Source: Microbacterium lemovicicum
GTDB lineage: Bacteria > Actinomycetota > Actinomycetes > Actinomycetales > Microbacteriaceae
Reading direction: 5' to 3'
NCBI RefSeq assembly: GCF_003991875.1
Contig: NZ_CP031423.1
Coordinates: 3,472,001 to 3,536,000 of the forward strand
DNA: 64,000 nt
Part shown: piece after piece, positions 8,247 through 23,849 of the stretch
How positions within the stretch are numbered: the stretch's first letter is position 1
Layout of the letters: every line of letters begins with the position of its first letter
Position numbers and translations under genes: made by a program
Notes under the pieces: model-generated
The model's database searches: none
What the model saw: only the letters and a program-made list of their open reading frames with translations
Told to the model about the DNA's origin: nothing

Positions 8247-9512
8247 TCAGCGCCGCGCGGGGGCCGCCTCCACGCGGGACTCGAGCCAGTCCGCGACCTG
8301 CGCGCGGACGGATGCCGCGTCGTAGGCCGACTCGTCGGCGTTGTCGGCGCGCAGCACGAACACCGGGATGCCGGCCTCCTCCAGCGCCCGGGTGATCGCC
8401 CACCCGCCGCGGGGGTCGTCGGAGACGAGGTGCACGACACCGTCGACGCCGTGCTGCTGCGCCTGATCGACGTACCACTCGGTCGCCTCGGGCGCGACGT
8501 AGAGCCGCTCGGGGAAGCCGATGAACCGCGAGGCGAGCGCCCGGAGCGGATCGCCGCCGTAGCGCGCGTACCCGTCGGCCGCGATCGACAGGTACATCGA
8601 CCAGACGAAGACCGCGCCGTACTGCTCCTCGAAGTGGCGGTAGAAGTCCATGTCGAACCACAGCCCGCGTCCGATCCACATCAGCCGCGCGCGCTCGTCG
8701 GCCACGACGCCCCGGCCCGCCTCGACCCGCTCGGCGATCTCGTCGTGCAGCGCCCGGGCGGCGTCGCGGCCCCACTCCGTGCCGCGATGCCACTGCGGCA
8801 GCATCACGGCCGGGATGGTGTCGGTGACCCGCACCGGCAGCGGACGCGCGGCGGCGATGAGGTCGCGGGTGCGGCGGTTCCACTCGGCCTGCTCGTTGCC
8901 GAGCCGCATGATCTCGCGCAGCGCCGTCTCGTCGTAGGCCCGGCCGCTGATCCGCTCGAGCACGGGGATGAGCTCCCGCAGCTCGGCGACCATGAGGTCG
9001 ATGCGGCGGCTGCCGACGACGTGCTCCCACTGGTCGGCGACGGTTTGCCACCACTCCTCCACCGGGGCCGTCTGCACGGCGCTCTCGAAGGCGAAGAGCT
9101 CGACCCCCACGACGTCGCGCCACGCCTCGAACAGCTTGCCGGTGACGTCCCCAGTGCGGTCGGTCGCGACCAGCGCGGGCCGCGGCAGCACGCCCCACCC
9201 GGGAACGTCGTCGGCGTCGCCGTTCAGCACGTTCCCGAGCCCGATCGTGTTGTACGGCTCGGAGTCGCGGGGCAGCCCCGCGCGGGCGACGGCGTCCAGG
9301 CCCGACTGGGCGGCGCCCCGGGAGGCGGCCACCGACGACCACCACTGGTTCACGACGTACGGCACGTCGAAGGCACGGAACAGCTCGTGCGGAACGTCGG
9401 CGTTCACCAGTGCGACGGGGCGCCCGGCCTCCGCCTCGGCGCGCAGCTCGGCGAACCACTCGCGCTGATGCCGGAGGGCTTCCCGCGCGGTGCGGAGTCG
9501 GTCGTCGGTCAT
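8247..9512 (-). CDS. 2-hydroxyacyl-CoA dehydratase-like subunit without cysteines
   Basis: A 421-residue protein with the layout of the HgdA/FldB/BcrB family: a VPHELFRAF element near the N-terminus, RLMWIGRGLWFD in the middle, and DGVVHLVSDDPRGG then GIPVF near the end. In studied enzymes three cysteines hold a [4Fe-4S] cluster; here there is not a single Cys in the whole sequence, and the usual CD and C-terminal Cys positions read TDRTGD and VSDD. It cannot bind the standard cluster, so classical radical dehydration is unlikely. It overlaps the next subunit by four bases and is last in the nine-gene operon. It could be a cofactor-free CoA-binding enzyme; the reaction is unknown. Confidence 0.75.
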   Translation of the reverse strand: MTDDRLRTAREALRHQREWFAELRAEAEAGRPVALVNADVPHELFRAFDVPYVVNQWWSSVAASRGAAQSGLDAVARAGLPRDSEPYNTIGLGNVLNGDADDVPGWGVLPRPALVATDRTGDVTGKLFEAWRDVVGVELFAFESAVQTAPVEEWWQTVADQWEHVVGSRRIDLMVAELRELIPVLERISGRAYDETALREIMRLGNEQAEWNRRTRDLIAAARPLPVRVTDTIPAVMLPQWHRGTEWGRDAARALHDEIAERVEAGRGVVADERARLMWIGRGLWFDMDFYRHFEEQYGAVFVWSMYLSIAADGYARYGGDPLRALASRFIGFPERLYVAPEATEWYVDQAQQHGVDGVVHLVSDDPRGGWAITRALEEAGIPVFVLRADNADESAYDAASVRAQVADWLESRVEAAPARR

Positions 9513-10561
9513 CGCAGCATCCCGATCTGCTCGAGTCCGCCGCGGAGGACGGAGAGGTCGATGTCGCCGGCGGCCTGCTCGTGCACGACCACCACGGGCA
9601 GCGCGGTCGCCGCGCGCAGGGTGCCGACCTCCCACATGGCGGCGTCGTCGCGGCGCCGCGCGTACGAGACGATCGCGGCCGCGCCGGCGCGCTCGGCGCG
9701 GACGGCCAGGGAGGCTGCCCGCTCCAGCGCGGAGCCGCGGTGCGCGCTCTGCCCGTCGCGCCAGGCGCGCTCGGCGATGCCGTCGACGGACGGCTCGCGC
9801 ACGTCGAGCTCGAGCCCGAGCGCCCCGCCCGCGCAGTCGTCGGCGACGACCCGCACGCCGCACTGCTCGATGCGCTCGACGACCGCCGGCCCCCACTGCG
9901 AGCTCCCCGTCAGGGCGATGCGCGGCAGGTCGGCCGGAGATGAACGGCGGGCGGATGCCACGGCCTCGCGCAGCGCGACGAGCGCCGCCTCGGGGGCCAG
10001 CTCGTCGGCCCGCGCGCGCAGCAACGCGAAGTCCGCGCCGCTGATCGCCGGACGCAGGTCGGCCAGGAGCCACAGCGCCCGGCGCACCTGTCCGCGCGCG
10101 CGGGCGGCGTCGGCGACGTCGCCCGCCGACGGACGCCGGCCGGTCCAGTCGCCGAGCGCGTCCTGCAGCCGTGCGACCTCGGCCGCCGTGTAGGCGAGCG
10201 ACGACGCCCGCGGCAGATGCAGCACGTCGGCGAGGTGGACCGGCGGGAGCCCGCGGTCGTGCTCGCGCCGCGCGAGCTCGCGGAGGGCGTAGTAGAGGCG
10301 CTGCGTGGCATCCGCATCACTGCACAGCACGATCGCGTCGAGACCCGACGGGTCGGCGAGCACGTGCGCGAGGGTCGCCGTGGCATCCGGGTCGATCCCC
10401 GTGCCGAGGATCTCCCCCGCCTCGGCGAACGCGTCGGCGAAGGCCGGCCCGGCGGCGCCCCGCGGCAGCGCGTCGAGCCGCCGCACCCGGGCGCCGACCG
10501 CGTCGAACACCTCGATCGGCACGTCCCGTCCGACGACGCCGATCACGGCCTCGCCGCTCAT
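9509..10561 (-). CDS. 2-hydroxyacyl-CoA dehydratase-like second subunit
   Basis: A 350-residue partner of the protein at 8247. It keeps the family elements IVLCSDAD, VLHLP, and the GSSQWGPAVVERIE / VVADDC block that normally carries a cluster cysteine. It has three Cys in all (in LCSD, EQCG and DDCAG). The C-terminal region that usually holds the last ligand reads SYARRRDD, without Cys. At best a partial ligand set remains. Upstream is the CoA-transferase gene and downstream the Cys-free subunit, each overlapping by four bases, the same gene order as fldA-fldB-fldC or hadA-hadB-hadC loci of anaerobes. No activator ATPase gene is in the window. Confidence 0.7.
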   Translation of the reverse strand: MSGEAVIGVVGRDVPIEVFDAVGARVRRLDALPRGAAGPAFADAFAEAGEILGTGIDPDATATLAHVLADPSGLDAIVLCSDADATQRLYYALRELARREHDRGLPPVHLADVLHLPRASSLAYTAAEVARLQDALGDWTGRRPSAGDVADAARARGQVRRALWLLADLRPAISGADFALLRARADELAPEAALVALREAVASARRSSPADLPRIALTGSSQWGPAVVERIEQCGVRVVADDCAGGALGLELDVREPSVDGIAERAWRDGQSAHRGSALERAASLAVRAERAGAAAIVSYARRRDDAAMWEVGTLRAATALPVVVVHEQAAGDIDLSVLRGGLEQIGMLR

Positions 10562-11793
10562 ACGACGCGCGCGTCGGCGAGGCCGGCGATCCGCTCCGCC
10601 GAGTAGCCGAGCAGCTCCTCGAGCACGTCCTGCGTGTCGGCGCCGAGCGCGTGCGCGGGCCGGTCGAGACCCACCTCGCTGCGGCTGAAGGTGATCGGCA
10701 CGCCGGTGCCCCAGAGCTCGGTGTCGACGTGGAAGTCCGGATGCTGGATCCGCACCACTTCGCGACGCGACTGCACCCGCGGGTCGCGGACGGCGTCGGC
10801 AAGGGCCCGGACGGGCGCGCAGGGCACGCCGTTCGACTCGAACGCGGTGACGGCCTCATCGACGGTGCGGTGCCCGGCCCAGTCGGCCATCCGCTCGTGC
10901 AGCTCGTCGGAGTTGCTCACGCGGGCGTCGCGCATGGCGAAGCGCGGATCGTCCAGGAGCTCGGGGGCGTCGATCGTGCGGAACACCCCCGCGGCGAACG
11001 CGTCGGTGGGCCCGCACACGGCGAACCAGCCGTCGGAGGCCCGGAAGGTGCCGAACGGCGCGAGCCGGGGCACGTAGTCGCCGGTGCGCGTGGGGTACCC
11101 CATCGACTCGAAGGCGTCGAAGGGCTCGCAGGCGACGAGCGAGGTCATCGCACCGAGCATCGACACGTCGACGTGCTGGCCCTCGCCGCTGCGATCGACC
11201 TCCATGAGGGCGGCCAGGGTGCCGATGACGGCGAAGAGCGGGGCCGACAGATCGGCGATGGGCAGGCCGAAGCGCACCGGGCTGTCACCGGGCTCGCCCG
11301 CGGTCATCATGATGCCGCTCAGCGCCTGGACGATCGTGTCCATGGCCTTCCCGCCGTCGCCCGCGTCGGAGCCGAAGCCGGTGATGGACGTGTAGACCAG
11401 GCGCGGGTTGGCCGCCCGGACGGCCTCGTAGTCGATGCCGAGCCGCCGGGTGACGCCGGCGCTGTAGTTCTCGACGAGCACGTCGGCGTGGGCGATGAGG
11501 TCCATCAGGACGGCACGGCCCTCCTCCGTCTTCAGATCGAGCGAGATGCTCTCCTTGTTGCGGCCGCGCAGCAGCATCGACACCGACATGTCGTCGGCGG
11601 CGGTCTTGACCGGCGACAGGCCGTCGCGCGTCGCGTAGGGCGAGTTGGTGCGGGAGCTGTCGCCGCCGCGGTGGGGGTTCTCGACCTTGATCACCCGGCC
11701 GCCGAGGCCGCCGAGCATGAGGGTGGCGTAGGGGCCCGCGAGGGCGGTGGTGAGATCCAGGACGAGACGTCCGTCGAGGGGGGCGCCGGTCAT
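10558..11793 (-). CDS. Class III (CaiB/BaiF) acyl-CoA transferase
   Basis: A 411-residue family III CoA-transferase. It shows the N-terminal LVLDLTTALAGPYATLMLGG segment, ENPHRGGDSSR, the NKESISLDLK block and the catalytic aspartate, Asp152 in GGKAMDTIVQ, which forms the acyl anhydride in this family. Length is normal. It likely moves CoA onto the carboxylate product used by the two dehydratase-like subunits encoded downstream, as FldA or HadA do in related loci; the acid is unknown. Four-base overlaps on both sides show it is in the middle of the operon. Confidence 0.9.
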   Translation of the reverse strand: MTGAPLDGRLVLDLTTALAGPYATLMLGGLGGRVIKVENPHRGGDSSRTNSPYATRDGLSPVKTAADDMSVSMLLRGRNKESISLDLKTEEGRAVLMDLIAHADVLVENYSAGVTRRLGIDYEAVRAANPRLVYTSITGFGSDAGDGGKAMDTIVQALSGIMMTAGEPGDSPVRFGLPIADLSAPLFAVIGTLAALMEVDRSGEGQHVDVSMLGAMTSLVACEPFDAFESMGYPTRTGDYVPRLAPFGTFRASDGWFAVCGPTDAFAAGVFRTIDAPELLDDPRFAMRDARVSNSDELHERMADWAGHRTVDEAVTAFESNGVPCAPVRALADAVRDPRVQSRREVVRIQHPDFHVDTELWGTGVPITFSRSEVGLDRPAHALGADTQDVLEELLGYSAERIAGLADARVV

Positions 11794-12362
11794 GAGGGCT
11801 TCTTTCTGTCGGCGTGGGGAAGAGGGCGGATGTCGGGGGTGCGGGCGAGCGTGCCGCGCAGCGGCCGGCGGGCGGCGGCCGCCTCGGCGGCCTCCACGTC
11901 GCCGAACCAGCCGCCCTGGAGGGTCTCGGCGAGGGTGGCCAGGATGGCGGGCACCCGCTCGCGATCGGCTTCGCTCAGGTCCGACATCGCGCGGGCCTGC
12001 ATCATGCGCAGTTCGCCGCGTGCGGCATCCAGCACCTCCCAGCCCGCATCCGTCAGGCGCGCGAGCTTGATGCGGCCGTCGGTGGGGTGGTCGACGGTCT
12101 CGACCAGTCCGCCCGCGACCAGCGTCGAGACGACCTGGTGGCTCGACTGGGGGGTGACGAACGCGCGACGGGCGAGCTGCGCGGAGGACAGCAGCACGCC
12201 CTCCGCGAGGACGAGCAGCACGTTGAACTCGGCCAGGCTCACCCCGTGCCGCCAGGAGATGTCGTCGGCGGCGCGGTTCATCGACCGGGACAGACGGTTA
12301 AGCGTGTAGTAGAGCTCGTCGGTGGCGAGGCTGGTGGCGCGAGGGGGCAGCTGCTCGTTCAT
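11790..12362 (-). CDS. MarR-family transcriptional regulator
   Basis: A 190-residue winged-helix regulator. The HTH is in LSSAQLARRAFVTPQSSHQV and the wing in DHPTDGRIKLARLTDAG, both typical of MarR. It sits inside the catabolic operon, overlapping the CoA-transferase and the alpha/beta hydrolase genes by four bases each, so it probably controls the operon in response to its substrate or an acyl-CoA. The likely target is the 18563-18666 divergent region; I found no convincing dyad there. Confidence 0.9.
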   Translation of the reverse strand: MNEQLPPRATSLATDELYYTLNRLSRSMNRAADDISWRHGVSLAEFNVLLVLAEGVLLSSAQLARRAFVTPQSSHQVVSTLVAGGLVETVDHPTDGRIKLARLTDAGWEVLDAARGELRMMQARAMSDLSEADRERVPAILATLAETLQGGWFGDVEAAEAAAARRPLRGTLARTPDIRPLPHADRKKPS

Positions 12363-13231
12363 GGAGCGAAGGTATCCGAGACGATGCCGTCGGCGGGATG
12401 GGCGGAACCCTCGATCTCGGACAGGAACACGGCGACCTCCCTCGCCAGGCGGGCCGGGCTCTCGCCCGCCATCATGTGGCCCTCGTCCTCCCAGAGGACG
12501 GCCTTGGCCCCGCGCACGTTGACGGCGGCGCGCAGCGTCGCCTCCGGACTGATGACGCCGTCGCGCAGGGCCCCCAGGATCAGCACCGGCACCCGGATGG
12601 AGCGGAAGATCTCGGCGAGCTCCTCGTCGGTGCGCGCCTCGGGGAAGGGCTTGCCCTGGTTGATGCGCGCCTCCTCCTCCGACTGGCCGGCGAAGGTGTC
12701 GATCATGCGGCGGAACATGTGCTCGCGGCCGGCCTCGCGGCGCGGCTCATCGGTCCAGCCCGCGAGCTTCCCGAACTGCGCGCGGATCACCTCGGGGTCC
12801 TTGCGGCCGGCGATGACGGCGGCGCGGCCGGCCGAGCTGGCGGTGCCGCCCGCGCGGTCGTGCGGGGCGCCGACGACAGAGATGAGTGCCGCGAGGCGCT
12901 CGGGATGCCGACGGGCGAGGTGCCAGCCGATGCCCGCGCCGTGCGAGACGCCCGTGTAGACGAACCTGTCGATGCCGAGCTCATCGGCGACGCGGCAGAC
13001 GTCGTCGGCCCACGTATCGAGCCAGCCGTCGGGCGGGGTCTCTGCGAGGTGGGTCGAGCGTCCCCATCCGCGGGCCTGGATCTGGATGACGCGGCGGCCG
13101 AGCGGGTCGCGCGAGAGGATCTCGGGGTAGCCGCCGGGCTCGAACGACGAGGCGCTGGCCAGAATGGGCATCCCCTCTCCGGAGAACTCGTCGTACCAGA
13201 GCGACACGTCGTCGACGGGCATGTGGGGCAT
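12359..13231 (-). CDS. Alpha/beta hydrolase
   Basis: A 290-residue alpha/beta hydrolase. The nucleophile elbow is GVSHG (Ser96). The acid is probably the Asp in LGALRDGVISPE and the His that in EDEGHMMAGE. RGWGRS marks the oxyanion/cap-side loop common to ester and carbon-carbon hydrolases. Two Cys residues at most and no signal peptide: a cytoplasmic enzyme. It lies between the transporter genes and the CoA-transferase in one operon, so it probably opens or de-esterifies the imported compound. Substrate unknown. Confidence 0.88.
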   Translation of the reverse strand: MPHMPVDDVSLWYDEFSGEGMPILASASSFEPGGYPEILSRDPLGRRVIQIQARGWGRSTHLAETPPDGWLDTWADDVCRVADELGIDRFVYTGVSHGAGIGWHLARRHPERLAALISVVGAPHDRAGGTASSAGRAAVIAGRKDPEVIRAQFGKLAGWTDEPRREAGREHMFRRMIDTFAGQSEEEARINQGKPFPEARTDEELAEIFRSIRVPVLILGALRDGVISPEATLRAAVNVRGAKAVLWEDEGHMMAGESPARLAREVAVFLSEIEGSAHPADGIVSDTFAP

Positions 13232-14049
13232 CAGCGGGTCTCTTCCTGGGGGAGCGGGGCGGAGCGGCGGGAGGCGTGCCCCGCCTGGGGCACGGACTCC
13301 AGCAGCGCGCGCGTGTAGTCCTCGCGCGGGTCGGCGAACAGCTGCTCGGTGGGGCCCGACTCGATGATCCGGCCCCCGCGCAGCACGACGACCTCGTCGG
13401 AGATCTGGCGCACGATCGCGAGGTCGTGCGAGATGAACAGCAGGCTCAGTGCGAGCTCGCGCTGCAGACGCGTGAGCAGGTTCATCACGTCGGCCTGCAC
13501 CGAGAGGTCGAGCGCGCTGACCGGCTCGTCGCAGACGATGAACTCGGGGTCGGTCATGAGGGCCCGGGCGATCGCGATCCGCTGGCGCTGGCCACCGGAG
13601 AACTGAGCGGGATACCGCACCAGCGCGCCCTCGTCGAGTCCGACCGTGGCGACGAGCTCACGGGCACGGGATGCCGCGGCATCCGCCGTCATGCCGTGGA
13701 ACCGTGCCGGCTCCATGAGGCTGTAGCCGATGGTGCGCAGCGGGTCGAGGGAGCTGTAGGGGTCCTGGAAGATGACCTGCCGCACCTTGCCGAGCTCGCG
13801 CCGGCGCTTCGCGGAGACGTCGTGGACCGGCTGACCGAGGAAGCGGATCTCGCCCGCGGCGACCGGCACGAGGCCGAGCACGGCCATGCCGATCGTGGTC
13901 TTGCCCGAGCCCGACTCGCCCACGAGGCCGAGCGTGCGCCCGCGGCGCACCTCGAAGCCGACGCCCTCGACGGCCGTCGAGCGCTTGCGGCCGGCGCCGT
14001 AGTCGACGCGGATGTCGCGCACCTCCAGCACGGGGGTGGTGTCGCTCAT
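13231..14049 (-). CDS. Peptide-type ABC transporter ATPase (DppF/OppF class)
   Basis: A 272-residue ATPase with Walker [10 protein letters not shown]-loop [12 protein letters not shown], signature FSGGQRQR, Walker [13 protein letters not shown] and the H-loop SHDLAIV. It ends with the [10 protein letters not shown] tail of Opp/Dpp ATPases. The ATG at 14049 overlaps the stop of the permease-ATPase fusion gene. It pairs with the ATPase half of that fusion to drive import through the 16016 and 14046 permeases. Confidence 0.93.
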
Positions 14050-16019
14050 GCGCGGACCTCCTCGTCGACGAGGGCGCCGATGCGGATGCAGCGGCTCACC
14101 CGCTCCGCTCCGGCCTCGCGCAGGGCGATGGGGCCGGAGGAGCACTCGGGGGTGGACAGCGGGCAGCGCGCGGCGAAGCGGCAGCCGTCGGGCCAGGATC
14201 CGGGCGGCGGCACGACGCCGCCGATGGTGGGGAGGATGTCGCCGCGGCGCGCGCCGTGCGGGTCGGAGGCGAGGAGCCCGCGCGTGTACGGATGGCGGGG
14301 GGCGCCCAGCAGGGCGTCGACGCCGGCCTCCTCAACCAGCTGGCCGGCGTACATCACCAGCGTGCGGTCGCACGTCTCGGCCACGACGCCCCAGTCGTGG
14401 GTGACGAGGATGATCGACATGCCCGTCTCGTCACGGAGGCTCGAGAGGAGGGAGAGGATCTCGGCCTGCACGGTCACGTCGAGGGCCGTCGTGGGCTCGT
14501 CGGCGATGAGCAGACGCGGGCGGCCCGCGAGGGCCTTCGCGATGACGACGCGCTGGGCCATGCCGCCGGAGATCTGGTGCGGGTAGCTGCGGAAGACGCG
14601 CTCGGGGTCGGGCAGGCGCATCGAGACGAGCAGCTCGATCGCCCGGCGGCGCGCGTCGGCGCGAGACGTCCGGTCGTGGCGGCGCACGACCTCGACGATC
14701 TGGAAGCCGACGGTGAACGAGGGGTCGAGGGCCACGAGCGGCTCCTGCGAGATGTACGCGATGCCGCTGCCGCGGACGGCCTTCATCGCCGCGGCGTCGC
14801 CGGAGATGGTCTGCCCCTCGAACGACACGGTGCCGCCCGTCACGCGGCCGCCGCGGCCGAGGAGGCCGATGGTCGCCAGCGCGGTGACGGTCTTGCCGCT
14901 GCCGGACTCGCCGACGATGCCGAGGATCTCGCCGCGACCGACGTCGAAGGTCACGCCGTCGACGACGGTGAGCGGCTCGCGCCCCCCGCCGAAGGCGACG
15001 GTGAGCTCGTCGACCGCGAGCAGCGGGTCGGCGGCGTGGCGACGGGCCTCGACCGCGTCGGCGGGGCGGGCGGCGTCGCGGGGTGCGCGGACGGCACGCG
15101 TCGGGGCGCCGCGCTGCTGCACCTGCTCGGCGGTCACGTCGCGCAGGGCGTCGCCGAGGAGGCCGAGCGCGAGGGTCGCGATGACGATGACGCCGCCGGT
15201 GGGCACGAACATCCAGGGGAAGGACTGGATCGCGGAGGCCGCCTCGGCGACCATCCCGCCCCAGGTGGGCGCCGGCGGGGGCGGCCCGAAGGCCAGGAAC
15301 GACAGACCGGTCTGGATGCCGAGGGTGGCCGCGGCGAACAGCGACGCCTGCACGAGGATGGTGCCCCGCGCCTGGGGCAGCACGTGCCGGAACAGGATGA
15401 GCCGGGTCGGCAGGCCGGTCACGACGGCGGCCTGCACGAACGGCTCCTGCCGCAGTGCCAGCACGGCGCTGCGGAACACGCGGGTGAACGCCGCCGAGGC
15501 GAGCGCGCCGATCGTGATCATGGCGGCGAGCATGCTGTTGTTGAAGATCGCCAGCGACGCGAGCGTGATCAGGATGGCGGGGATCGACATCACGATGTCG
15601 ATGACCGACAGCACCGCGCGGTCGAAGGCGCCGCGGATGTAGGCGGCGAGGATGCCGACGGGCACGGAGATGACGAGCATCACCAGCAGTGCCTCCGCGA
15701 CGCCCAGGAGCGAGTCGCGCCCGCCGTACATGATGCGGGTGAGGAGGTCGCGGCCGAGGAGGTCGGTGCCGAGCCAGTGCAGCGCCGACGGCCCCTGGCG
15801 GGCGACGGACGGGTCCTGGGCCAGCGGATCCCACGGCGACAGCAGCGGGGCGAAGATCGCCGCGAGCACCAGGAGGAGCACCACGACGAGCGCGGCGACG
15901 CCGAGCGGCTTGCGCAGCAGCGCCCGGGTCAGGGAGGCCGACGGCGGCCGGCCCGTGGAGACCGGACGCGTGACCGGGGCCGGCTCGCCGGCCAGGACGG
16001 GGAGGGTGGGCGACGTCAT
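14046..16019 (-). CDS. ABC permease-ATPase fusion (DppC + DppD)
   Basis: A 657-residue fusion. Residues about 1-300 are a DppC-type permease: a first TM near 38-60, GTDLLGRDLLTRIMYGGRDSL, and the EAA loop AAVVTGLPTRLILFRHVLP. After a charged linker (about 300-345) comes a DppD-type ATPase with [39 protein letters not shown] and VTHDWGV. The C-terminal extension with CRFAARCPLSTPEC matches the cysteine motif of DppD/OppD proteins. Such fusions are known in actinobacteria. It overlaps both neighbouring genes by four bases. Confidence 0.93.
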   Translation of the reverse strand: MTSPTLPVLAGEPAPVTRPVSTGRPPSASLTRALLRKPLGVAALVVVLLLVLAAIFAPLLSPWDPLAQDPSVARQGPSALHWLGTDLLGRDLLTRIMYGGRDSLLGVAEALLVMLVISVPVGILAAYIRGAFDRAVLSVIDIVMSIPAILITLASLAIFNNSMLAAMITIGALASAAFTRVFRSAVLALRQEPFVQAAVVTGLPTRLILFRHVLPQARGTILVQASLFAAATLGIQTGLSFLAFGPPPPAPTWGGMVAEAASAIQSFPWMFVPTGGVIVIATLALGLLGDALRDVTAEQVQQRGAPTRAVRAPRDAARPADAVEARRHAADPLLAVDELTVAFGGGREPLTVVDGVTFDVGRGEILGIVGESGSGKTVTALATIGLLGRGGRVTGGTVSFEGQTISGDAAAMKAVRGSGIAYISQEPLVALDPSFTVGFQIVEVVRRHDRTSRADARRRAIELLVSMRLPDPERVFRSYPHQISGGMAQRVVIAKALAGRPRLLIADEPTTALDVTVQAEILSLLSSLRDETGMSIILVTHDWGVVAETCDRTLVMYAGQLVEEAGVDALLGAPRHPYTRGLLASDPHGARRGDILPTIGGVVPPPGSWPDGCRFAARCPLSTPECSSGPIALREAGAERVSRCIRIGALVDEEVRA

Positions 16020-16960
16020 CGGCTCTGGCGCACTTTCGGGTTCAGGGAGGCGTAGGCGAGGTCGACGGCGAGGTTGATCACGATGACGATCGCGGTGAAG
16101 GCCACGCCCACACCGAGGATCACCGGCAGGTCGTGCCGGGTCGCCGCCGAGGTGACGAGGCTGCCGAGGCCGGGGAGGACGAAGACGTTCTCGATGAAGA
16201 CCGCGCCGCTGAGCGCGCCGACGGCCATGAGCCCGATGAGGGTGGTGGTGGGGATGGAGGCGTTGCGCAGCACGTGCAGCAGCACGATGCGCGTCTCCGA
16301 GACGCCGGTCGATCGCAGCACCCGCACGTAGTCGCGCTCCAGCTCGCGGCGGGCCGAGTCGCGCATCTGCTTCGCGATGACCGTCACCCCGCCGAGCGAG
16401 AGCGCCGCGACCGGCAGCACCAGCGAGTTGAGCCAGGGGCCCGTCCCCGCGGCCGGGGGGACGTACCCGGTCGCGGGGAACAGGCGGAGTCCCACGGCGA
16501 AGATCGCCACCAGCACGATCGCGATCCAGAAGCTCGGCAGCGCGAAGCCCACGAGCGACAGGGCGTCGATCGTGCGTCCGATCCAGCCTTCCCGCAGCGC
16601 GCTGGCCAGACCGATCACGATGCCGAGGATCGCGATGGCCACCGTCGAGCCGATCATGAGCGCGAACGTGACGCCCATGCGGCCGCCGACGAGCTTGGTC
16701 ACCGGCTCGCCGCTGTAGATCGACTTCCCGAGGTCGCCGCGCAGCACGCCGAGCACCCAGTTCCCGTACTGCTGCCAGAGGGGCTGGTTCAGGCCGAGCT
16801 GCTCTCGCAGGTAGTCGACCGACTGGGGCGTGGCGTTCTCGCCGAGGATCGTCTGGGCCGCATCTCCGGGGACCAGCGACATGAGCACGAAGATCGTCAG
16901 CGTCGAGACGAAGATCAGCACGATCGACATCAGCACGCGGCGGATCACCAGCAGCGTCAT
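16016..16960 (-). CDS. Peptide-type ABC transporter permease (DppB class)
   Basis: A 314-residue inner-membrane permease with about six helices. The first is VIRRVLMSIVLIFVSTLTIF, followed by the PGDAAQTILGENAT segment, the cytoplasmic EAA loop (RSTGVSETRIVLLHVLRNA) and the conserved FIENVFVLPGLGSL near the C-terminus. It forms the channel with the permease half of the 14046-16019 fusion. It lies 30 bp after the binding-protein gene, so expression is shared. Confidence 0.93.
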   Translation of the reverse strand: MTLLVIRRVLMSIVLIFVSTLTIFVLMSLVPGDAAQTILGENATPQSVDYLREQLGLNQPLWQQYGNWVLGVLRGDLGKSIYSGEPVTKLVGGRMGVTFALMIGSTVAIAILGIVIGLASALREGWIGRTIDALSLVGFALPSFWIAIVLVAIFAVGLRLFPATGYVPPAAGTGPWLNSLVLPVAALSLGGVTVIAKQMRDSARRELERDYVRVLRSTGVSETRIVLLHVLRNASIPTTTLIGLMAVGALSGAVFIENVFVLPGLGSLVTSAATRHDLPVILGVGVAFTAIVIVINLAVDLAYASLNPKVRQSR

Positions 16961-16990: not shown

Positions 16991-18562
16991 TCAGGATGCC
17001 GGGGACCAGGCCAGGTCGGCGGAGGGCGCGACCGGGATCGGGTTCGGGTTCAGCGTCGAGACGCGCACGTTCTTCACGTCCGGCGAGATGTAGTACACGT
17101 TGTTCGTCGCGATCAGCGGCAGGAACCACGCCAGCTCGTTGGAGCGTTCCGTGACAGCCTGCTCCGCAGCATCCTTGCCGTCTCCGGTCGCCAGGATCGC
17201 GGCCTGCGTGAGCTCCGCCAGCTCGGGGTCGGTCACGCCGAAGGCGTTCGTGAAGCCCGGGCCGGTGAAGGTCTGGGAGTAGTCCGAGGCGACGTCGCCG
17301 ACGATCGGCCAGATGATGGCGGGGTACTGCTTGCTGCCGGCCTTGCCGATGAAGTCGGGGATCGCGCTGGCGACGTCGAGCGTGACGTCCACGCCGATCT
17401 CGCCCAGGTGGGCGATCGCGGTCTGCGTGATGAGCGACTGGTTGTCGAGCGGCGTCTCGGACAGGAGCGTCATCGAGAAGCCGTCGGGGTAGCCCGACTC
17501 GGCCATCAGCTTCTTGGCCGCGTCGAGGTCGTAGTCGAAGCCGGCATCGGCGACGTGACCGACCTCCTGGTCGGTCGTCAGCTGGCTGAGCGCGGTGGCG
17601 AACTCGTCGCCGCCGCGAGCCGAGACGATCGCATCGCGGTCAATCGCGTAGGCCATCGCCTGGCGCACCTTCTCGTCGCCCAGCGCCGGCACGATGGTCC
17701 CGTCGCGGTCGAGCACGATGAGGCCGTAGTTGAAGTACGGCGCGGACAGCAGGGAAAGGCCCGCCGCCGTCGCGGCCTCCGCCGTGTCGGCCCCGCCGCC
17801 GGCGAACTGCACCTGGCCGGTCGTGGCCGCGGAGATGACCGCGTTGGGGTCTCCGATGACCTGGATGGAGATCTGGTCGTACTTCTGCGCGTCGGTGTTC
17901 CAGTAGCCGTCCCAGCGGTCGTACACGTAGCTGGACTCGGCGACGGACGTGTCGGGGTTGTAGCGGTACTGACCGGTGCCGTCCATCGTGGTCAGGAGCG
18001 ACTCGGGGTTCTTCACGCCCTCCGGTCCGATGATGAGCCCGAGCTGGTTCAGCTGCGTGAGCTTGGACGGCCCGGCGGGGTACGGGCTGGCGTAGGTGAT
18101 GAGGACGGTGTCGTCGTCCTCGGCGGTGATCGTGTCGATCGGGCCGACGGTGGGAACCTGGCCGCCGCCCGCGCCCATGAAGTAGTTCATCGAGTCGGCC
18201 ACGGACTGCGCGTCGAGCTCGGCGCCGTCCTGGAAGGTCACGCCGTCGCGGATGGTGAGCTCGAGCTGGGTGTTGTCGGCGTCGCGGAACGACCACTCGG
18301 TCGCCAGACTGGGCACGAGGTCGCCGTCGCCGCTCAAGTAGATGAGCGGGTCGTAGGCCAGCGCCGTGTAGACGACGCTGCCGCCACCGCCGGCGAGCGC
18401 GGGGTTGAGGCTGATGGGGATGCCGGTGAACTGGAGGGCGAGCTTGTCGCCGCGGCCTCCGTCCGAGGTGGCGGCATCGGTCGAGGCGGCACAGCCTGAC
18501 ATCGTCAGCGCGGTGACCGCGGCGATGGCGAGCAGCGCCACGGCAGGGCGTCGGTGTGACAT
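16991..18562 (-). CDS. ABC transporter substrate-binding lipoprotein (peptide/nickel class)
   Basis: A 523-residue family 5 extracellular solute-binding protein. The signal ends in LTMSGC (lipidated Cys near residue 24). Family hallmarks are ATEWSFRDADNTQLELTIRD, GVTFQDGAELDA and AYAIDRDAIV. It is the first gene of the nine-gene operon, and its cognate permeases and ATPases follow directly. Family 5 proteins bind peptides but also opines, sugars and other compounds. The enzymes downstream suggest a non-peptide carboxylate or ester, which is inference. Confidence 0.92.
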   Translation of the reverse strand: MSHRRPAVALLAIAAVTALTMSGCAASTDAATSDGGRGDKLALQFTGIPISLNPALAGGGGSVVYTALAYDPLIYLSGDGDLVPSLATEWSFRDADNTQLELTIRDGVTFQDGAELDAQSVADSMNYFMGAGGGQVPTVGPIDTITAEDDDTVLITYASPYPAGPSKLTQLNQLGLIIGPEGVKNPESLLTTMDGTGQYRYNPDTSVAESSYVYDRWDGYWNTDAQKYDQISIQVIGDPNAVISAATTGQVQFAGGGADTAEAATAAGLSLLSAPYFNYGLIVLDRDGTIVPALGDEKVRQAMAYAIDRDAIVSARGGDEFATALSQLTTDQEVGHVADAGFDYDLDAAKKLMAESGYPDGFSMTLLSETPLDNQSLITQTAIAHLGEIGVDVTLDVASAIPDFIGKAGSKQYPAIIWPIVGDVASDYSQTFTGPGFTNAFGVTDPELAELTQAAILATGDGKDAAEQAVTERSNELAWFLPLIATNNVYYISPDVKNVRVSTLNPNPIPVAPSADLAWSPAS

Positions 18563-18666
18563 TCGTTGCTCCTTTGCAAGGGTCAGGGGTCACTCATCGA
18601 CACCCTCGATCCGGAAACTTATCAAGTAGACTGATGATTCACAACCCTTCCCGGAAGGCTTCGCCG

Positions 18667-20133
18667 ATGAAACCCTCTGCCCGGTCCGTCACGTTCCTCG
18701 ACGGCGCGCGTGCGCCGTTCGGCACCGCCGCCCTGTCGCCGGGCGCCGAGGTCCCCGCCGCCTCCCGCCTCACGATCGATCTCGACGGTGCCCGCTACGT
18801 CGAGGAGGAGTTCCTGCTGTCCGGCTCCGCGGGAACCTGGGAGACGGGCGACCCCGGCGCTCCGCGGCGACGGGACGACGGCATCCCGTATCGCACCCGT
18901 TTGCTGGTGCGACGGCCCTCGTCGCTCCGCGATGCCACCGGTGTGACGCACGTCGAGCCGCTGCATCCGCACCGCGACGCCGGTCTCACCTGGGACGCGC
19001 TCGCACCGCATCTCCTCCGCCGCGGCGACGCGTGGGTCGGGGTCACGGTGTTCCCCGACGTCGCACGGCTCATGCGCGATCAGCTCGATCCCGGCCGTTA
19101 CGGGCAGCTGCTCGTGCCGGGGCTCGGCACGGAGTGGGACGTGCTGTCCGACGCGCTCGGCGCGGTCCGCGAGAACGCGCTCGGCGCACTCGAGACCCGG
19201 CGGATCGTGCTGTCGGGCTGGTCGGCGACGGGCAGCGTCTGCCGGGTCTTCGCACGCGAGGGCTTCGCGACCGCGCGCGGCGGGCTCGTCGACGGCATCG
19301 CCATCGTCATCTCGTCGGGCGGGGCCGGGCCCGCCGGGTACCCACCCCTCACCCCGGATGCCGCGATGGTCGACCTGGCCGACCCGCGGCGGACGGTGCG
19401 CGACGTGGGCGTGCCCGTCTTCGAGATCCTCAGCGAGACCGAGTCCGAGACGCATCGCGCACAGCTGCGCGACGACTCTGACGACGCGGGCGACACCTAC
19501 CGCCTCTACCAGCTGGCCGGCGCCGCGCACATCGAGGACTGGCCCGGACGCCACGCCACCAACGCGCAGACGCTCGCCGCGGCGGGTCACGCCGACGGCG
19601 CCGTGCCGATGCGGGAGGCGCTGACCGACGCCCGCTCCGACCTCGTCGTACGGGCCCTCTTCGACCGGCTCGTAGACGCGATCGACGGCCATGCCGCACC
19701 CCGCGCTCCCCGGTTCGCCTACGAGACGGGCGACGTGCCGGAGGAGCGGATGCTGCGGCGCGACGCCGACGGCAACGTGCTCGGCGGCATCCGCACGCCC
19801 TGGATCGAGGCCGCCCTCGCGGCCTACGCCCCGCACGGCACGCCCGCCGCCGAGGGGTCGGGACCCGACTGGACGCCGATGGCGAATGCCGGATTCGCGG
19901 CACGGCTGACAGGGACCATGACGCCGTTCCCCCCGGCGGAGGTGCGCCAACGGTTCCCGTCGCGGGAGTCCTATCGGGAGGCGTTCACCGCGTCGACCGA
20001 CGTGCTGCTGGCCGATCGGATGCTGCTCGCTGACGATGCGGGCGAGCTGATCTCGGCGGCGACGAGGCGGTGGGAGGCGGCAGCGGGTGCGGGCGATGCG
20101 ACGGCCGTCCCCTCGCCGGAAGCGGGCGTCTGA
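18667..20133 (+). CDS. Alpha/beta hydrolase domain protein, about 488 residues
   Basis: A large hydrolase resembling the alpha/beta hydrolase domain family annotated in actinobacterial catabolic loci. The nucleophile elbow is LSGWSATGS (GWSATG). The acid could be in VFEILSETE, and the histidine in LAGAAHIEDWPGRH. No signal peptide. The ATG at 18667 has GGAAGG eight bases upstream; the in-frame ATG at 18634 lacks a site. A TAGACT -10-like hexamer lies at 18627-18632. It is divergent from the importer operon and followed after one base by the CapA-type gene. Confidence 0.75.
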   Translation: MKPSARSVTFLDGARAPFGTAALSPGAEVPAASRLTIDLDGARYVEEEFLLSGSAGTWETGDPGAPRRRDDGIPYRTRLLVRRPSSLRDATGVTHVEPLHPHRDAGLTWDALAPHLLRRGDAWVGVTVFPDVARLMRDQLDPGRYGQLLVPGLGTEWDVLSDALGAVRENALGALETRRIVLSGWSATGSVCRVFAREGFATARGGLVDGIAIVISSGGAGPAGYPPLTPDAAMVDLADPRRTVRDVGVPVFEILSETESETHRAQLRDDSDDAGDTYRLYQLAGAAHIEDWPGRHATNAQTLAAAGHADGAVPMREALTDARSDLVVRALFDRLVDAIDGHAAPRAPRFAYETGDVPEERMLRRDADGNVLGGIRTPWIEAALAAYAPHGTPAAEGSGPDWTPMANAGFAARLTGTMTPFPPAEVRQRFPSRESYREAFTASTDVLLADRMLLADDAGELISAATRRWEAAAGAGDATAVPSPEAGV

Positions 20134-20134
20134 C

Positions 20135-21256
20135 GTGACCGCGCAGCCTCTCGTCATCGCCGCCGTCGGCGACCTCATCGTCGATCAGCCTGAGCCTGGC
20201 CGGTTCTTCCGCGACGTGACCGCACATCTCCGAGCGGCCGATCTCGCGATCGGCCACATCGAGGTGCCGCACTCGACGACGACCGAGGTGACGAGCGTCG
20301 ACGTGCCCGCCCCGCCCGCCGACCCGAGGCACCTCGCCGCGGTCGCCGACGCCGGCTTCGGCGTGGTCACGCTCGCCGGCAACCACATCTACGACTCCGG
20401 TGCGACCGGCATCGCCGACACGATCGCCGCGGCCGCCCGCGTCGGCATGGTCACGGCCGGCGCCGGTGCAGACCTCCCCGCCGCGAAGCGGCCCGCGGTG
20501 CGGGAGATCGCCGGTCGCCGCGTGGGCGTGGTCAGCTACAACTGCGTCGGGCCCCGCGAGTCGTGGGCGACGAGCCGCAAGGCCGGCTGCGCCGCCGTCG
20601 ACGTGCTCACCCACTACGAGATGCGCAACGCGAATCCCGGCGGACCCCCGCGCGTCCGCACCTTCTGCGACCCGGCGTCGCTGCAGGCCTTCCGCGACGA
20701 CATCGCCGCGGTCGCCGCCGAGACCGACGTCCTCGTCGTCGCCCTCCACAAGGGGCTCGTCCACACGCCCGCGCGGCTGGCGGACTACGAGACCGAGATC
20801 GCCCATGCCGCGATCGACGCGGGGGCGCACGCCGTCATCGGCCACCACGCGCACATCGGCCGCGGGGTCGAGCTCTACCGGCAGCGGCCGATCTTCCACG
20901 GCCTGGGCAACTTCGTGACGGTGACCGACGCCCTCACCCCGTCGCACGACTCGTCCGAGGAGGCCGCGGCCTGGGCGGCCGGCCGCGCCGAGGTGTTCGG
21001 CTTCGTCCCCGACCCGGCGATGCCCGCGTACCCCTTCCATCCCGAGAGCCGGCACACGATGATCGCCCGGCTGACGATCGGAGACGAGGTCGCCGCCTCC
21101 TTCGTCCCCTGCTGGATCGAGGACGACGGCCGGCCCGTCCCGCACGGCCGCGACGCCCGCGGCGAGCAGATCCTGGAGTACGTCCGCTCCATCTCCGCCC
21201 GCGCCGGGCTGATCACGCGCTACGACTGGGACGGCGACCTCATCCGCGTCCACTGA
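20135..21256 (+). CDS. CapA-type metallophosphoesterase
   Basis: A 373-residue protein of the CapA/PgsA superfamily (calcineurin-like phosphoesterase fold). Metal-site motifs are visible: AVGDLIVD, LAGNHIYDSG, ALHKG and GHHAHIGRG, followed by GLGNFV. CapA homologues were first linked to polyglutamate capsule, but most are cytoplasmic phosphoesterases of unknown substrate. No signal peptide is present here. The GTG at 20135 is chosen because it directly follows the stop of the hydrolase gene and starts the first beta strand; earlier starts add a basic tail read from the upstream gene. Confidence 0.8.
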   Translation: MTAQPLVIAAVGDLIVDQPEPGRFFRDVTAHLRAADLAIGHIEVPHSTTTEVTSVDVPAPPADPRHLAAVADAGFGVVTLAGNHIYDSGATGIADTIAAAARVGMVTAGAGADLPAAKRPAVREIAGRRVGVVSYNCVGPRESWATSRKAGCAAVDVLTHYEMRNANPGGPPRVRTFCDPASLQAFRDDIAAVAAETDVLVVALHKGLVHTPARLADYETEIAHAAIDAGAHAVIGHHAHIGRGVELYRQRPIFHGLGNFVTVTDALTPSHDSSEEAAAWAAGRAEVFGFVPDPAMPAYPFHPESRHTMIARLTIGDEVAASFVPCWIEDDGRPVPHGRDARGEQILEYVRSISARAGLITRYDWDGDLIRVH

Positions 21257-21293
21257 GTCCCGCGCGCCGCGGCCCCGTGCCAGCATGGCTGGC

Positions 21294-22088
21294 ATGCTGA
21301 TCGATCTCACCGGCCGGACGGCCGTCGTCACCGGATCCACGGCCGGCATCGGCTTCGCCATCGCCCGCGGGCTGGCCGGGGCCGGCGCGCGGGTCGTCGT
21401 CAACGGCCGCTCCCCGGAGACGGCGGATGCTGCGGCCCGGCGCATCCGCGAGGAGGTTCCCGCGGCATCCGTCCTCTCCGTCGCCGCCGACGTCACGACC
21501 GAGGACGGCGCGCGCAGGCTCGTCGACGAGGCCGGCGATGTGGACGTGCTGGTCAACAACCTCGGCATCTTCGGCGCGACACCCGCGCTGGAGATCGGCG
21601 ACGAGGAGTGGCGGCGGTACTTCGACGTGAACGTGCTCGCCGCCGTGCGGCTGATCCGCCTGGTGCTGCCCGGGATGATGGAGCGCGGATGGGGTCGCGT
21701 GCTGAACATCGCGAGCGATTCGGCGGTCGTGATCCCGGCGGAGATGATCCACTACGGCGTCTCCAAGACGGCGCTGCTCGGCGTCTCGCGGGGCTTCGCG
21801 AAGGCCGCCGCGGGCACGGGTGTCACGGTCAACTCGGTGATCGCCGGTCCGACGCACACCGGCGGCGTCGAGGACTTCGTCTACGAGCTGGTCGATCGCG
21901 ATCTGCCGTGGGACGAGGCGCAGCGCGAGTTCATGCGAATCCATCGACCGCAGTCTCTGCTGCAGCGTCTCATCGAGCCCGAGGAGATCGCGAACATGGT
22001 GGTCTACCTCGCCTCACCGCTGGCCTCGGCCACGACGGGCGGAGCGCTGCGGGTCGACGGCGGCTACGTCGACTCGATCCTGCCGTAG
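21294..22088 (+). CDS. Short-chain dehydrogenase/reductase
   Basis: A classical SDR of 264 residues with the cofactor motif TGSTAGIG, NNLGIFG, a catalytic Ser in NIASDSA and YGVSK as the Tyr/Lys pair. It ends in GGALRVDGGYVDSILP. NAD(P)-dependent, cytoplasmic. An ATG three codons upstream (21285) is equally possible, as neither has a clear ribosome binding site. It follows the CapA-type gene by 37 bp and probably belongs to the same metabolic set. Confidence 0.9.
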   Translation: MLIDLTGRTAVVTGSTAGIGFAIARGLAGAGARVVVNGRSPETADAAARRIREEVPAASVLSVAADVTTEDGARRLVDEAGDVDVLVNNLGIFGATPALEIGDEEWRRYFDVNVLAAVRLIRLVLPGMMERGWGRVLNIASDSAVVIPAEMIHYGVSKTALLGVSRGFAKAAAGTGVTVNSVIAGPTHTGGVEDFVYELVDRDLPWDEAQREFMRIHRPQSLLQRLIEPEEIANMVVYLASPLASATTGGALRVDGGYVDSILP

Positions 22089-22227: not shown

Positions 22228-23742
22228 TCAGTGGCCGGCGCCGAGCCCGCCGCTGAGCCGCCCGTGGAAGCGGGTCGTCGCCTCGTTCATCCCCTCGAGG
22301 GTGACGGTCTTGCCGAGCCGGTCGTATTTCGTGCGCACGGCGTCGAGGGCCGCGACCGTCGAGGCGTCCCAGATGTGCGAGCGCGACATGTCGATGACGA
22401 TGCGCTCCGGATCCTGCGTGTACGAGAACTGCGTGGTGAGGTCGTTGCTCGAGGCGAAGAAGAGCTCGCCGTCGACGTCGTAGTGGGCGGTGGCCGCGGC
22501 ATCCGTCCCCTCGATCCGGCGCGTGACCGTCACGAAGTGGGCGACGCGTCGTGCGAACAGGATCATCGCGGCGATGACGCCCCCGCCCACGCCGAGGGCG
22601 AGGTTGTGGGTCCAGACGGTGATGACCACGGTCACCACCATGACGAGGGTCTCGCTCTTCGGCAGGCGCCGCAGCGTCGAGGGCCGCACGCTGTGCCAGT
22701 CGAAGGTCGCCACCGAGACCACCACCATGACGGCGACCAGGGCCGCCATCGGGATGATGGCCACGACGTCGCCGAGCACGAGCACGAGGATCAGGAGGAA
22801 GACGCCGGCGAGGAAGGTGGAGATGCGCGTACGGGCGCCCGAGGCCTTCACGTTGATCATGGTCTGCCCGATCATCGCGCAGCCGCCCATGCCGCCGAAG
22901 GCCCCGGAGAGGATGTTCGCCGCACCCTGTCCGAGCGCCTCGCGCGTCTTCGGCGAGTGCGTGTCGGTGATCTCGTCGACGAGCTTGGCCGTCATAAGCG
23001 ATTCGAGCAGTCCGACGACGGCCATCGCGGCGGCGAAGGGCAGGATGATGCCCAGCGTCTCCCACGTCACAGGCACGTCGGGCAGGAACAGCTCCGGCAG
23101 GCTCTCGGGCAGTGCGCCCTGGTCGCCCACCGTCGGAACGCTGATGCCGAAGACGACCGCCGCGCCCGTGAGGAGCGCGATCGCGAAGAGCGGCGCGGGC
23201 ACGACGCGCGTGACGAGCGGCATGAGGTACATGATCAGCAGCCCGACCACGACGAGGGGATACACCGCCCACGGCACGCCGATCAGCTGCGGCACCTGCG
23301 CGATGAAGATCAGGATCGCGAGCGCGTTGACGAAGCCGACCATCACGCTGCGCGGGATGAAACGCATCAGCTTGGCGACGCCGAGCACGGCAAGGACGAT
23401 CTGGATGACGCCGCCGAGCAGCACCGTGGCGATGAAGTAGTCCATGCCGTATTCGCGGGCGACCGGAGCGATCACGAGCGCGATGGCGCCGGTGGCGGCG
23501 GTGATCATCGCCGGACGTCCGCCGAGGAACGAGATGGCGACGGCCATGATGAACGACGAGAACAGCCCGAGGCGCGGATCCACGCCGGCGATGATCGAGA
23601 ACGCGATCGCCTCGGGGATCAGGGCGATCGCGACGACGAGTCCGGCGAGCACCTCGCGCGTCAGGAGGCGCGGGCTGCGGAGGGCCTGCAGCACGGTGGG
23701 TTCGATGCGCGGCCGGGTCGGCGCGGGCGTGACGGCGGTCAT
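22228..23742 (-). CDS. SulP-family anion transporter with STAS domain
   Basis: A 504-residue transporter. A hydrophobic core of 10-14 helices contains AIALIPEAIAFSIIAGVDP, the SulP signature region, and GGMGGCAMIGQTMINVKASG. A cytoplasmic STAS domain forms the last 110 residues (ERIVIDMSRSHIWDAST). Family members move sulfate, bicarbonate or other anions. The ATG at 23742 has GGAG four bases before it; the frame is open further upstream but reads as unstructured sequence. A MerR gene is divergent. Confidence 0.92.
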   Translation of the reverse strand: MTAVTPAPTRPRIEPTVLQALRSPRLLTREVLAGLVVAIALIPEAIAFSIIAGVDPRLGLFSSFIMAVAISFLGGRPAMITAATGAIALVIAPVAREYGMDYFIATVLLGGVIQIVLAVLGVAKLMRFIPRSVMVGFVNALAILIFIAQVPQLIGVPWAVYPLVVVGLLIMYLMPLVTRVVPAPLFAIALLTGAAVVFGISVPTVGDQGALPESLPELFLPDVPVTWETLGIILPFAAAMAVVGLLESLMTAKLVDEITDTHSPKTREALGQGAANILSGAFGGMGGCAMIGQTMINVKASGARTRISTFLAGVFLLILVLVLGDVVAIIPMAALVAVMVVVSVATFDWHSVRPSTLRRLPKSETLVMVVTVVITVWTHNLALGVGGGVIAAMILFARRVAHFVTVTRRIEGTDAAATAHYDVDGELFFASSNDLTTQFSYTQDPERIVIDMSRSHIWDASTVAALDAVRTKYDRLGKTVTLEGMNEATTRFHGRLSGGLGAGH

Positions 23743-23849
23743 GGGGCTCCAGAGGAACAGGGCGAGCGGGGGCTCGACGGCGGAGCGCGGCACTGCGCGG
23801 AGGGAAGGAGGGGAGAAGATGGGATGTCGCGGCACCGGCGACCACGATG

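Follow-up and report, generated by a model that had tools for sequence, protein, structure and literature searches.

The stretch of DNA analysed here, referred to throughout as the window, comprises 64,000 nucleotides of the Microbacterium lemovicicum genome (contig NZ_CP031423.1, positions 3,472,001 to 3,536,000) and carries two adjoining genes for the subunits of a protein with the 2-hydroxyacyl-CoA dehydratase fold. The enzymes of this fold that have been characterised are classic cases of oxygen sensitivity and work with radicals at iron-sulfur (Fe-S) clusters. The pair in the window belongs to a real, conserved and cluster-free branch, which lacks four features of the radical enzymes, namely the cluster ligands of the large subunit, those of the small subunit, the activase and a catalytic Glu. 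An earlier interpretation made from the letters alone (hereafter the sequence-only reading) had described a pair with intact frames and four-base overlaps, located behind a class III coenzyme A (CoA) transferase and including one subunit wholly without cysteine (Cys), and this description is borne out by the coordinates. Specifically, overlaps of four bases join the alpha/beta hydrolase to the MarR gene, the latter to the CoA-transferase, the CoA-transferase to the small subunit and the small to the large subunit. The genes of the region are the following, with counts referring to 80 loci of relatives described below:

8247-9512, minus strand: large subunit (HadB/BzdO-like, PF06050), 421 amino acids (aa), no Cys
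9509-10561, minus strand: small subunit (HadC/BzdN-like, PF06050), 350 aa, three Cys (80, 234, 243)
10558-11793, minus strand: class III CoA-transferase (PF02515)
11790-12362, minus strand: MarR-family regulator, relatives in 9/80 loci
12359-13231, minus strand: alpha/beta hydrolase, PcaD-like, relatives in 14/80 loci
13231-14145, minus strand: ATP-binding cassette (ABC) transporter ATPase, oligopeptide type, probable start 14049
14046-16019, minus strand: ABC permease fused to ATPase (OppC/OppD type)
16016-16960, minus strand: ABC permease, OppB type
16991-18562, minus strand: solute-binding protein, family 5
18556-20133, plus strand: Abhydrolase_10 hydrolase, divergent, relatives in 6/80 loci
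20087-21256, plus strand: CapA-like metalloprotein (PF09587), on the opposite strand to the pair
21285-22088, plus strand: short-chain dehydrogenase/reductase (SDR) oxidoreductase, 3' of CapA, weakly linked to the module (1/80 loci)

Both subunits match PF06050 (HGD-D) with scores of 151.1 bits (large) and 76.6 bits (small) against a cut-off of 28.4, and they are the sole matches to this family in the genome. None of the NCBIfam equivalogs of the fold (HadB, BzdO, BcrB and double cubane) is reached, the best score being 47.8 bits versus 750. The systems used for comparison were HadBC, BzdNO, MbdON and DCCP. AlphaFold2 models, with a predicted local distance difference test score of 89.7 for the large and 92.0 for the small subunit, share the three-dimensional fold of HadBC and BzdNO. 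The database records of the relatives carry the label '2-hydroxyacyl-CoA dehydratase family protein'.

To follow the functional residues, those of BzdO and BzdN were placed on the window subunits through profile alignments. In the structural description (PMC11971306), the cluster Cys of BzdO are residues 95, 128 and 380, Glu65 (beside the cluster water) and His131 are the acid/base residues, and Tyr97, Tyr298 and Gln274 contact the thioester oxygen. In the alignment of 81 large subunits, the three ligand columns are occupied by E85 (Glu in 61/81, Arg in 10, Leu in 7, others in 3), G121 (Gly in 80/81) and P367 (Ala in 32, Pro in 24, Val in 11, Thr and Ser in 7 each); Cys is found at none of them in any of the 81 rows. 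The two thioester-binding Tyr are retained as Y87 and Y307 in all rows, and Gln274 corresponds to R282, also in 81/81. The columns of HadB E55 and MbdO E67 hold Gln (Q56, 81/81); by inference BzdO Glu65, itself outside the displayed alignment, is their equivalent. At the His131 column the window has T124 (Thr in 36 and Ser in 30 of the 81 rows). Moreover, four acidic or basic residues are invariant in 81/81: D39 and H242, together with D122 and D366, which lie one residue off ligand columns. As a control, 15 other PF06050 rows (one a duplicate) were read at the same columns, and among their aligned cells Cys85 is present in 13/13, Cys367 in 10/10 and Glu56 in 13/13, with Asp39 in 0/13 and His242 in 0/15; the second Cys column is poorly aligned in these rows (Cys in 3/15). 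D39 aligns with HadB Val38, which adjoins Ser37, and by homology would lie near the substrate site. In the predicted model, H242 directly follows the helix 229-241, and this helix appears to be the counterpart of BzdO helix 220-234, which runs along the pantetheine (PMC11971306).

The small subunit tells a similar story in the 72 rows of alignment A2, from which 9 of the 80 loci were left out, two because of an X in the chosen frame (L023 and L029) and seven with a score below 60 bits or no match (L037, L044, L052, L057, L062, L064 and L081). The cluster Cys of BzdN are given in PMC11971306 as 36, 73, 100, 263, 293 and 327. Their columns hold, in this order, G11 (72/72), D57 (72/72), residue 83 (Cys in 59, Ser in 12 and Ala in one, the latter being the window), residue 244 (Asp in 53, Ser in 13, Asn in 4 and Ala in 2, with Ala in the window), the variable residue 272, and D305 (72/72). 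The sequence-only reading had noted the loss of the C-terminal ligand only; this is correct and too narrow, since all three columns shared with HadC are devoid of Cys in the window (D57, A83 and D305) and its own Cys 80, 234 and 243 stand elsewhere. A candidate pattern in which an acid replaces Cys at every ligand column was rejected, as the profile alignment puts D122, D366 and D82 one residue off; the acids truly on ligand columns are only D57, D305 and, in 61/81 rows, E85.

The supply of the cofactor was considered on the scale of the genome, which consists of one contig and is 100% complete. No protein encoded in it exceeds the cut-off of the activase model TIGR00241 (best score 19.8 versus 125.4 bits), in a search whose control found matches in 6/14 genomes. 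For the broader family PF01869, a single match exceeds the cut-off (86 bits, at 685 kb) and another lies below it (21.1 bits); judged by eye, the first (318 aa, with a single Cys) looks like a sugar-kinase-type member. In other words, the activator that is missing from the window is, at family cut-offs, missing from the rest of the genome as well, and the supposition of an aerobic host is supported by the presence of a COX1 gene.

A search of genome contigs recovered 158 relatives, of which 80 were kept, all Actinomycetota by title. The large subunit is at least 90% conserved in 162 of 421 columns, with an identity to the window of 52-85%, and in the Nei-Gojobori (NG86) comparison with its nearest relative, L003, the nonsynonymous rate (dN) is 0.114 and the synonymous rate (dS) 0.616. 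In the small subunit only 13 of 350 columns are invariant. Within the distance limits applied, the small gene adjoins the large one in 76/80 loci, and small subunit and CoA-transferase are both found in 71/80. Many soil bacteria keep these genes side by side. The distribution is sporadic: 8/393 sampled genomes of the class, the window's included, match the profile at E <=0.001, and two of these eight (L132 and L133) are weak matches, in which Cys is retained in both column 85 and column 367.

Outside this group, two members of other classes of the same phylum, L115 and L116, encode small and large subunit as a single reading frame of 768 and 821 aa, respectively; the longer one is still open where its contig ends. 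Nine plasmid matches were also found: six from sphingomonads and one from Rhizobium at 36-39% identity, and two remote ones, L137 and L139, in which ligand Cys are present. Five of the six sphingomonad rows were analysed (L134, L135, L136, L140 and L141, with H2 left out). A quick tree of 106 rows, with L125, L126, L127 and L131 removed beforehand, groups 94 rows (88 actinobacterial, 5 sphingomonad and 1 Rhizobium, some of them identical) in a clade with a Shimodaira-Hasegawa-like approximate likelihood ratio test value of 99; the deeper placement of this clade is unsure because of long branches and midpoint rooting. The Rhizobium member (L138, plasmid of Rhizobium sp. SSA_523) is a Cys-free pair. 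Genes nearby encode a mandelate-racemase-like enolase, two MmgE/PrpD proteins, a carbon-nitrogen hydrolase and a dehydrogenase of the zinc type; within the 25 kb of this locus, tblastn found no CapA. As a separate observation, the remote L137 (Rhizobium leguminosarum plasmid) has a pair that is annotated as 2-hydroxyacyl-CoA dehydratase and retains ligand Cys; it is accompanied by two activase genes and adjoins rhodanese and sulfate permease genes. A supposed fusion of CoA-transferase and small subunit in sphingomonads was rejected, because CoA_transf_3 matches two or three stretches of the protein of about 700 aa; by eye this looks like a tandem CoA-transferase (L134 and L135), and the small subunit is a separate 'hypothetical' gene.

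Across the 80 loci, gene clusters for a solute-binding protein and a permease are found in 56 each, for CapA in 70 and for PaaX in 54 (the Pfam names SBP_bac_3, PGA_cap and PaaX being taken from the representatives L005 and L050), and the typical order is solute-binding protein, permease, ATPase, CapA, CoA-transferase, small and large subunit. The window differs in its oligopeptide-type transporter, in the extra alpha/beta hydrolase and MarR genes and in having CapA on the other strand. Its CapA has relatives in 69/80 loci, with a median identity of 59%. The sphingomonad plasmids L134-L136 have the order CapA, tripartite ATP-independent periplasmic (TRAP) transporter, small subunit, CoA-transferase and large subunit, and CapA of L140 is 44% identical to that of the window. 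The transporter type varies by host (SBP3 ABC, Opp ABC or TRAP). For the CoA-transferase, the top NCBIfam models are succinate-glutarate and mesaconate CoA-transferases, each far under its cut-off. At a threshold of E 0.001, the sole NCBIfam match of the CapA-like protein of L005 is the lasso-peptide epimerase MslH (83.9 bits), well short of the equivalog cut-off of 700 bits. The Asp, Glu, NHxxD and HxH motifs are kept in 69 or 70 of 70 CapA-like rows; the residues shared with MslH were matched by motif rather than by alignment, at a score far under the cut-off. MslH itself is presented in PMC10406935 as a single-metal acid/base epimerase acting beside a free carboxylate.

As to the remaining genes of the region, the MarR protein is a probable regulator of the operon. 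The Abhydrolase_10 open reading frame probably starts at 18634 or 18667; the CapA-like frame is counted from its first GTG and its true start may sit slightly further in. A serine hydrolase that looks like a lipoprotein and belongs to the beta-lactamase family (PF00144; 6819-8144, minus strand) lies immediately downstream of the operon, and a transporter with many spans, SulP-like by eye (22228-23835, minus strand), adjoins the CapA and SDR genes.

Taken together, the computations show the fold (on models), the loss of the cluster ligands, the lack of an activase match over the cut-off in the genome, the retention of the Tyr pair, the loss of the Glu, the new Asp39 and His242, and the occurrence in two phyla of a link with both CoA-transferase and CapA. 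We favour, with some confidence, the view that this is a catabolic operon for a carboxylic acid brought in by the transporter: the class III CoA-transferase would turn the acid into a CoA thioester, on which a cluster-free heterodimer of the dehydratase/reductase fold would act. The acyl-CoA would then sit in the large subunit, where Y87, Y307 and R282 would hold its carbonyl oxygen, and acid/base chemistry of the enolate or oxyanion type, operated by D39 and/or H242, would replace the ketyl radical; the small subunit would act as a scaffold, or hold a different metal at D57, Cys or Ser83 and D305. The likeliest single reaction, in our view possible and somewhat doubtful, would be one in which water or another group is eliminated from, or added to, an alpha-substituted acyl-CoA. 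More tentative still is the idea that CapA, as a remote relative of MslH, acts first, on the acid in its free form, and sets the alpha stereocentre.

A different possibility, rather unlikely in our judgement, is that a metal has replaced the cluster, with a carboxylate-rich site formed by Asp57, Asp305 and Cys/Ser83 of the small subunit and Asp122, Asp366 and often Glu85 of the large one, making the pair a metal-dependent acyl-CoA enzyme. The sequence-only reading had conceded that conserved metal-binding residues in place of the ligands would speak against it, and this concern is touched by the invariant Asp at two of the three small-subunit ligand columns. These two columns are among the 13 invariant ones of 350 (hypergeometric probability about 0.004, computed after the pattern was seen), D122 and D366 flank the large-subunit ligand columns in every row, and Asp305 recurs in 8/8 remoter rows (five sphingomonads, L115, L116 and L138). 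Nevertheless, Asp57 is found in 0/8 of the same rows, column 83 of the window is Ala, and the large-subunit ligand columns, with Glu, Arg or Leu, Gly and a variable residue, would make a poor metal site. It is less likely again that the pair is a pseudoenzyme, binding a CoA ester without catalysis and serving the CoA-transferase as a partner or regulator. Such a role would fit the loss of radical cofactor and catalytic Glu, the retained thioester-binding Tyr and the tight gene coupling to the CoA-transferase; against it, the clade has gained the invariant polar residues D39 and H242, and the many invariant columns of the large subunit suggest a role beyond binding. Decay of an anaerobic dehydratase, suggested by the loss of all ligands and by the faster-evolving small subunit (58% identity to L003, versus 86% for the large), is highly improbable, being contradicted by residue conservation and gene order kept in two phyla, by intact overlapping frames, by dN below dS in both subunits and by the recurrence of the Cys-free state in 80 loci and one alphaproteobacterial plasmid.

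Several observations weigh against the favoured view of a cluster-free catabolic enzyme. The small subunit evolves fast (NG86 dN of 0.335 and dS of 0.746 versus L003), no match to it lies beside the large one in 4/80 loci (L037, at a contig edge, L057, L062 and L064), and its column 83 is still Cys in 59/72 rows. Furthermore, R282 is Ala in the five sphingomonad rows and Thr in L138, which also lacks D39, Q56 and H242, and L115 is without D122. The pocket positions of D39 and H242 come from homology and model alignment rather than from coordinates, and the reaction, the substrate and the metal are likewise drawn from sequences and models. Finally, C85 and C121 are retained in the large subunit of the five sphingomonads, together with C88 and C123 (SCKYC and TCDC), and these five have neither the third large-subunit ligand nor Cys at small-subunit columns 57, 83 and 305. 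Their CxxC/CxC arrangement at the first two ligand columns is a possible alternative cluster or zinc site, and a metal or cluster may therefore persist in part of the clade. The proposal of a cluster-free branch is supported for the clade of Actinobacteria and for a single plasmid from Rhizobium, with these five relatives as a qualification; the new chemistry is what we infer. Since the sphingomonads keep two ligand Cys without the third, ligand loss looks stepwise. Whether an ancient branch of the fold shed clusters and activase by such steps, with the sphingomonads halfway and the Actinobacteria fully through, and now uses the same acyl-CoA pocket as an oxygen-tolerant, non-radical enzyme with a new catalytic pair of Asp and His, within a module for carboxylate degradation that has not been described before (CapA, CoA-transferase, small and large subunit), is a question on which our confidence is evenly divided.

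In the titles and opening lines of abstracts covered, few of them from subscription journals, nothing concerns a Cys-free branch of this fold. If such a branch is real, the label '2-hydroxyacyl-CoA dehydratase family protein' misleads and masks an unknown pathway, and the clade would offer a natural series, with three ligand Cys, two and none, for studying the capabilities of the fold once its cofactor is gone.

Among known systems, the double-cubane cluster protein DCCP (PDB 6eno) shares its fold with the small subunit and binds an [8Fe-9S] cluster; the likeness rests on the fold rather than on ligand columns. With respect to HadBC, the (R)-2-hydroxyisocaproyl-CoA dehydratase (PDB 3o3m), Cys84 is replaced by Glu, Cys117 by Gly and Glu55 by Gln, and the window's host has a haem-copper oxidase and no activator found in its genome. 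The class I benzoyl-CoA reductases BzdNO and MbdON (PDB 8s02 and 9g87) are closest by profile, MbdO being the top match of the large subunit (5e-22) and BzdN that of the small one (8.6e-24). Class I enzymes are described in PMC11971306 as oxygen-sensitive, with radical chemistry at Fe-S clusters. The window, in contrast, is without Cys at the [4Fe-4S] columns and at any of the six [8Fe-9S] columns (at the three shared with HadC, relatives keep Cys at most at column 83), has Gln at the Glu column and shows no activase match over the cut-off; what it has in common with these reductases is the fold, the two-subunit make-up and the thioester-binding Tyr pair.
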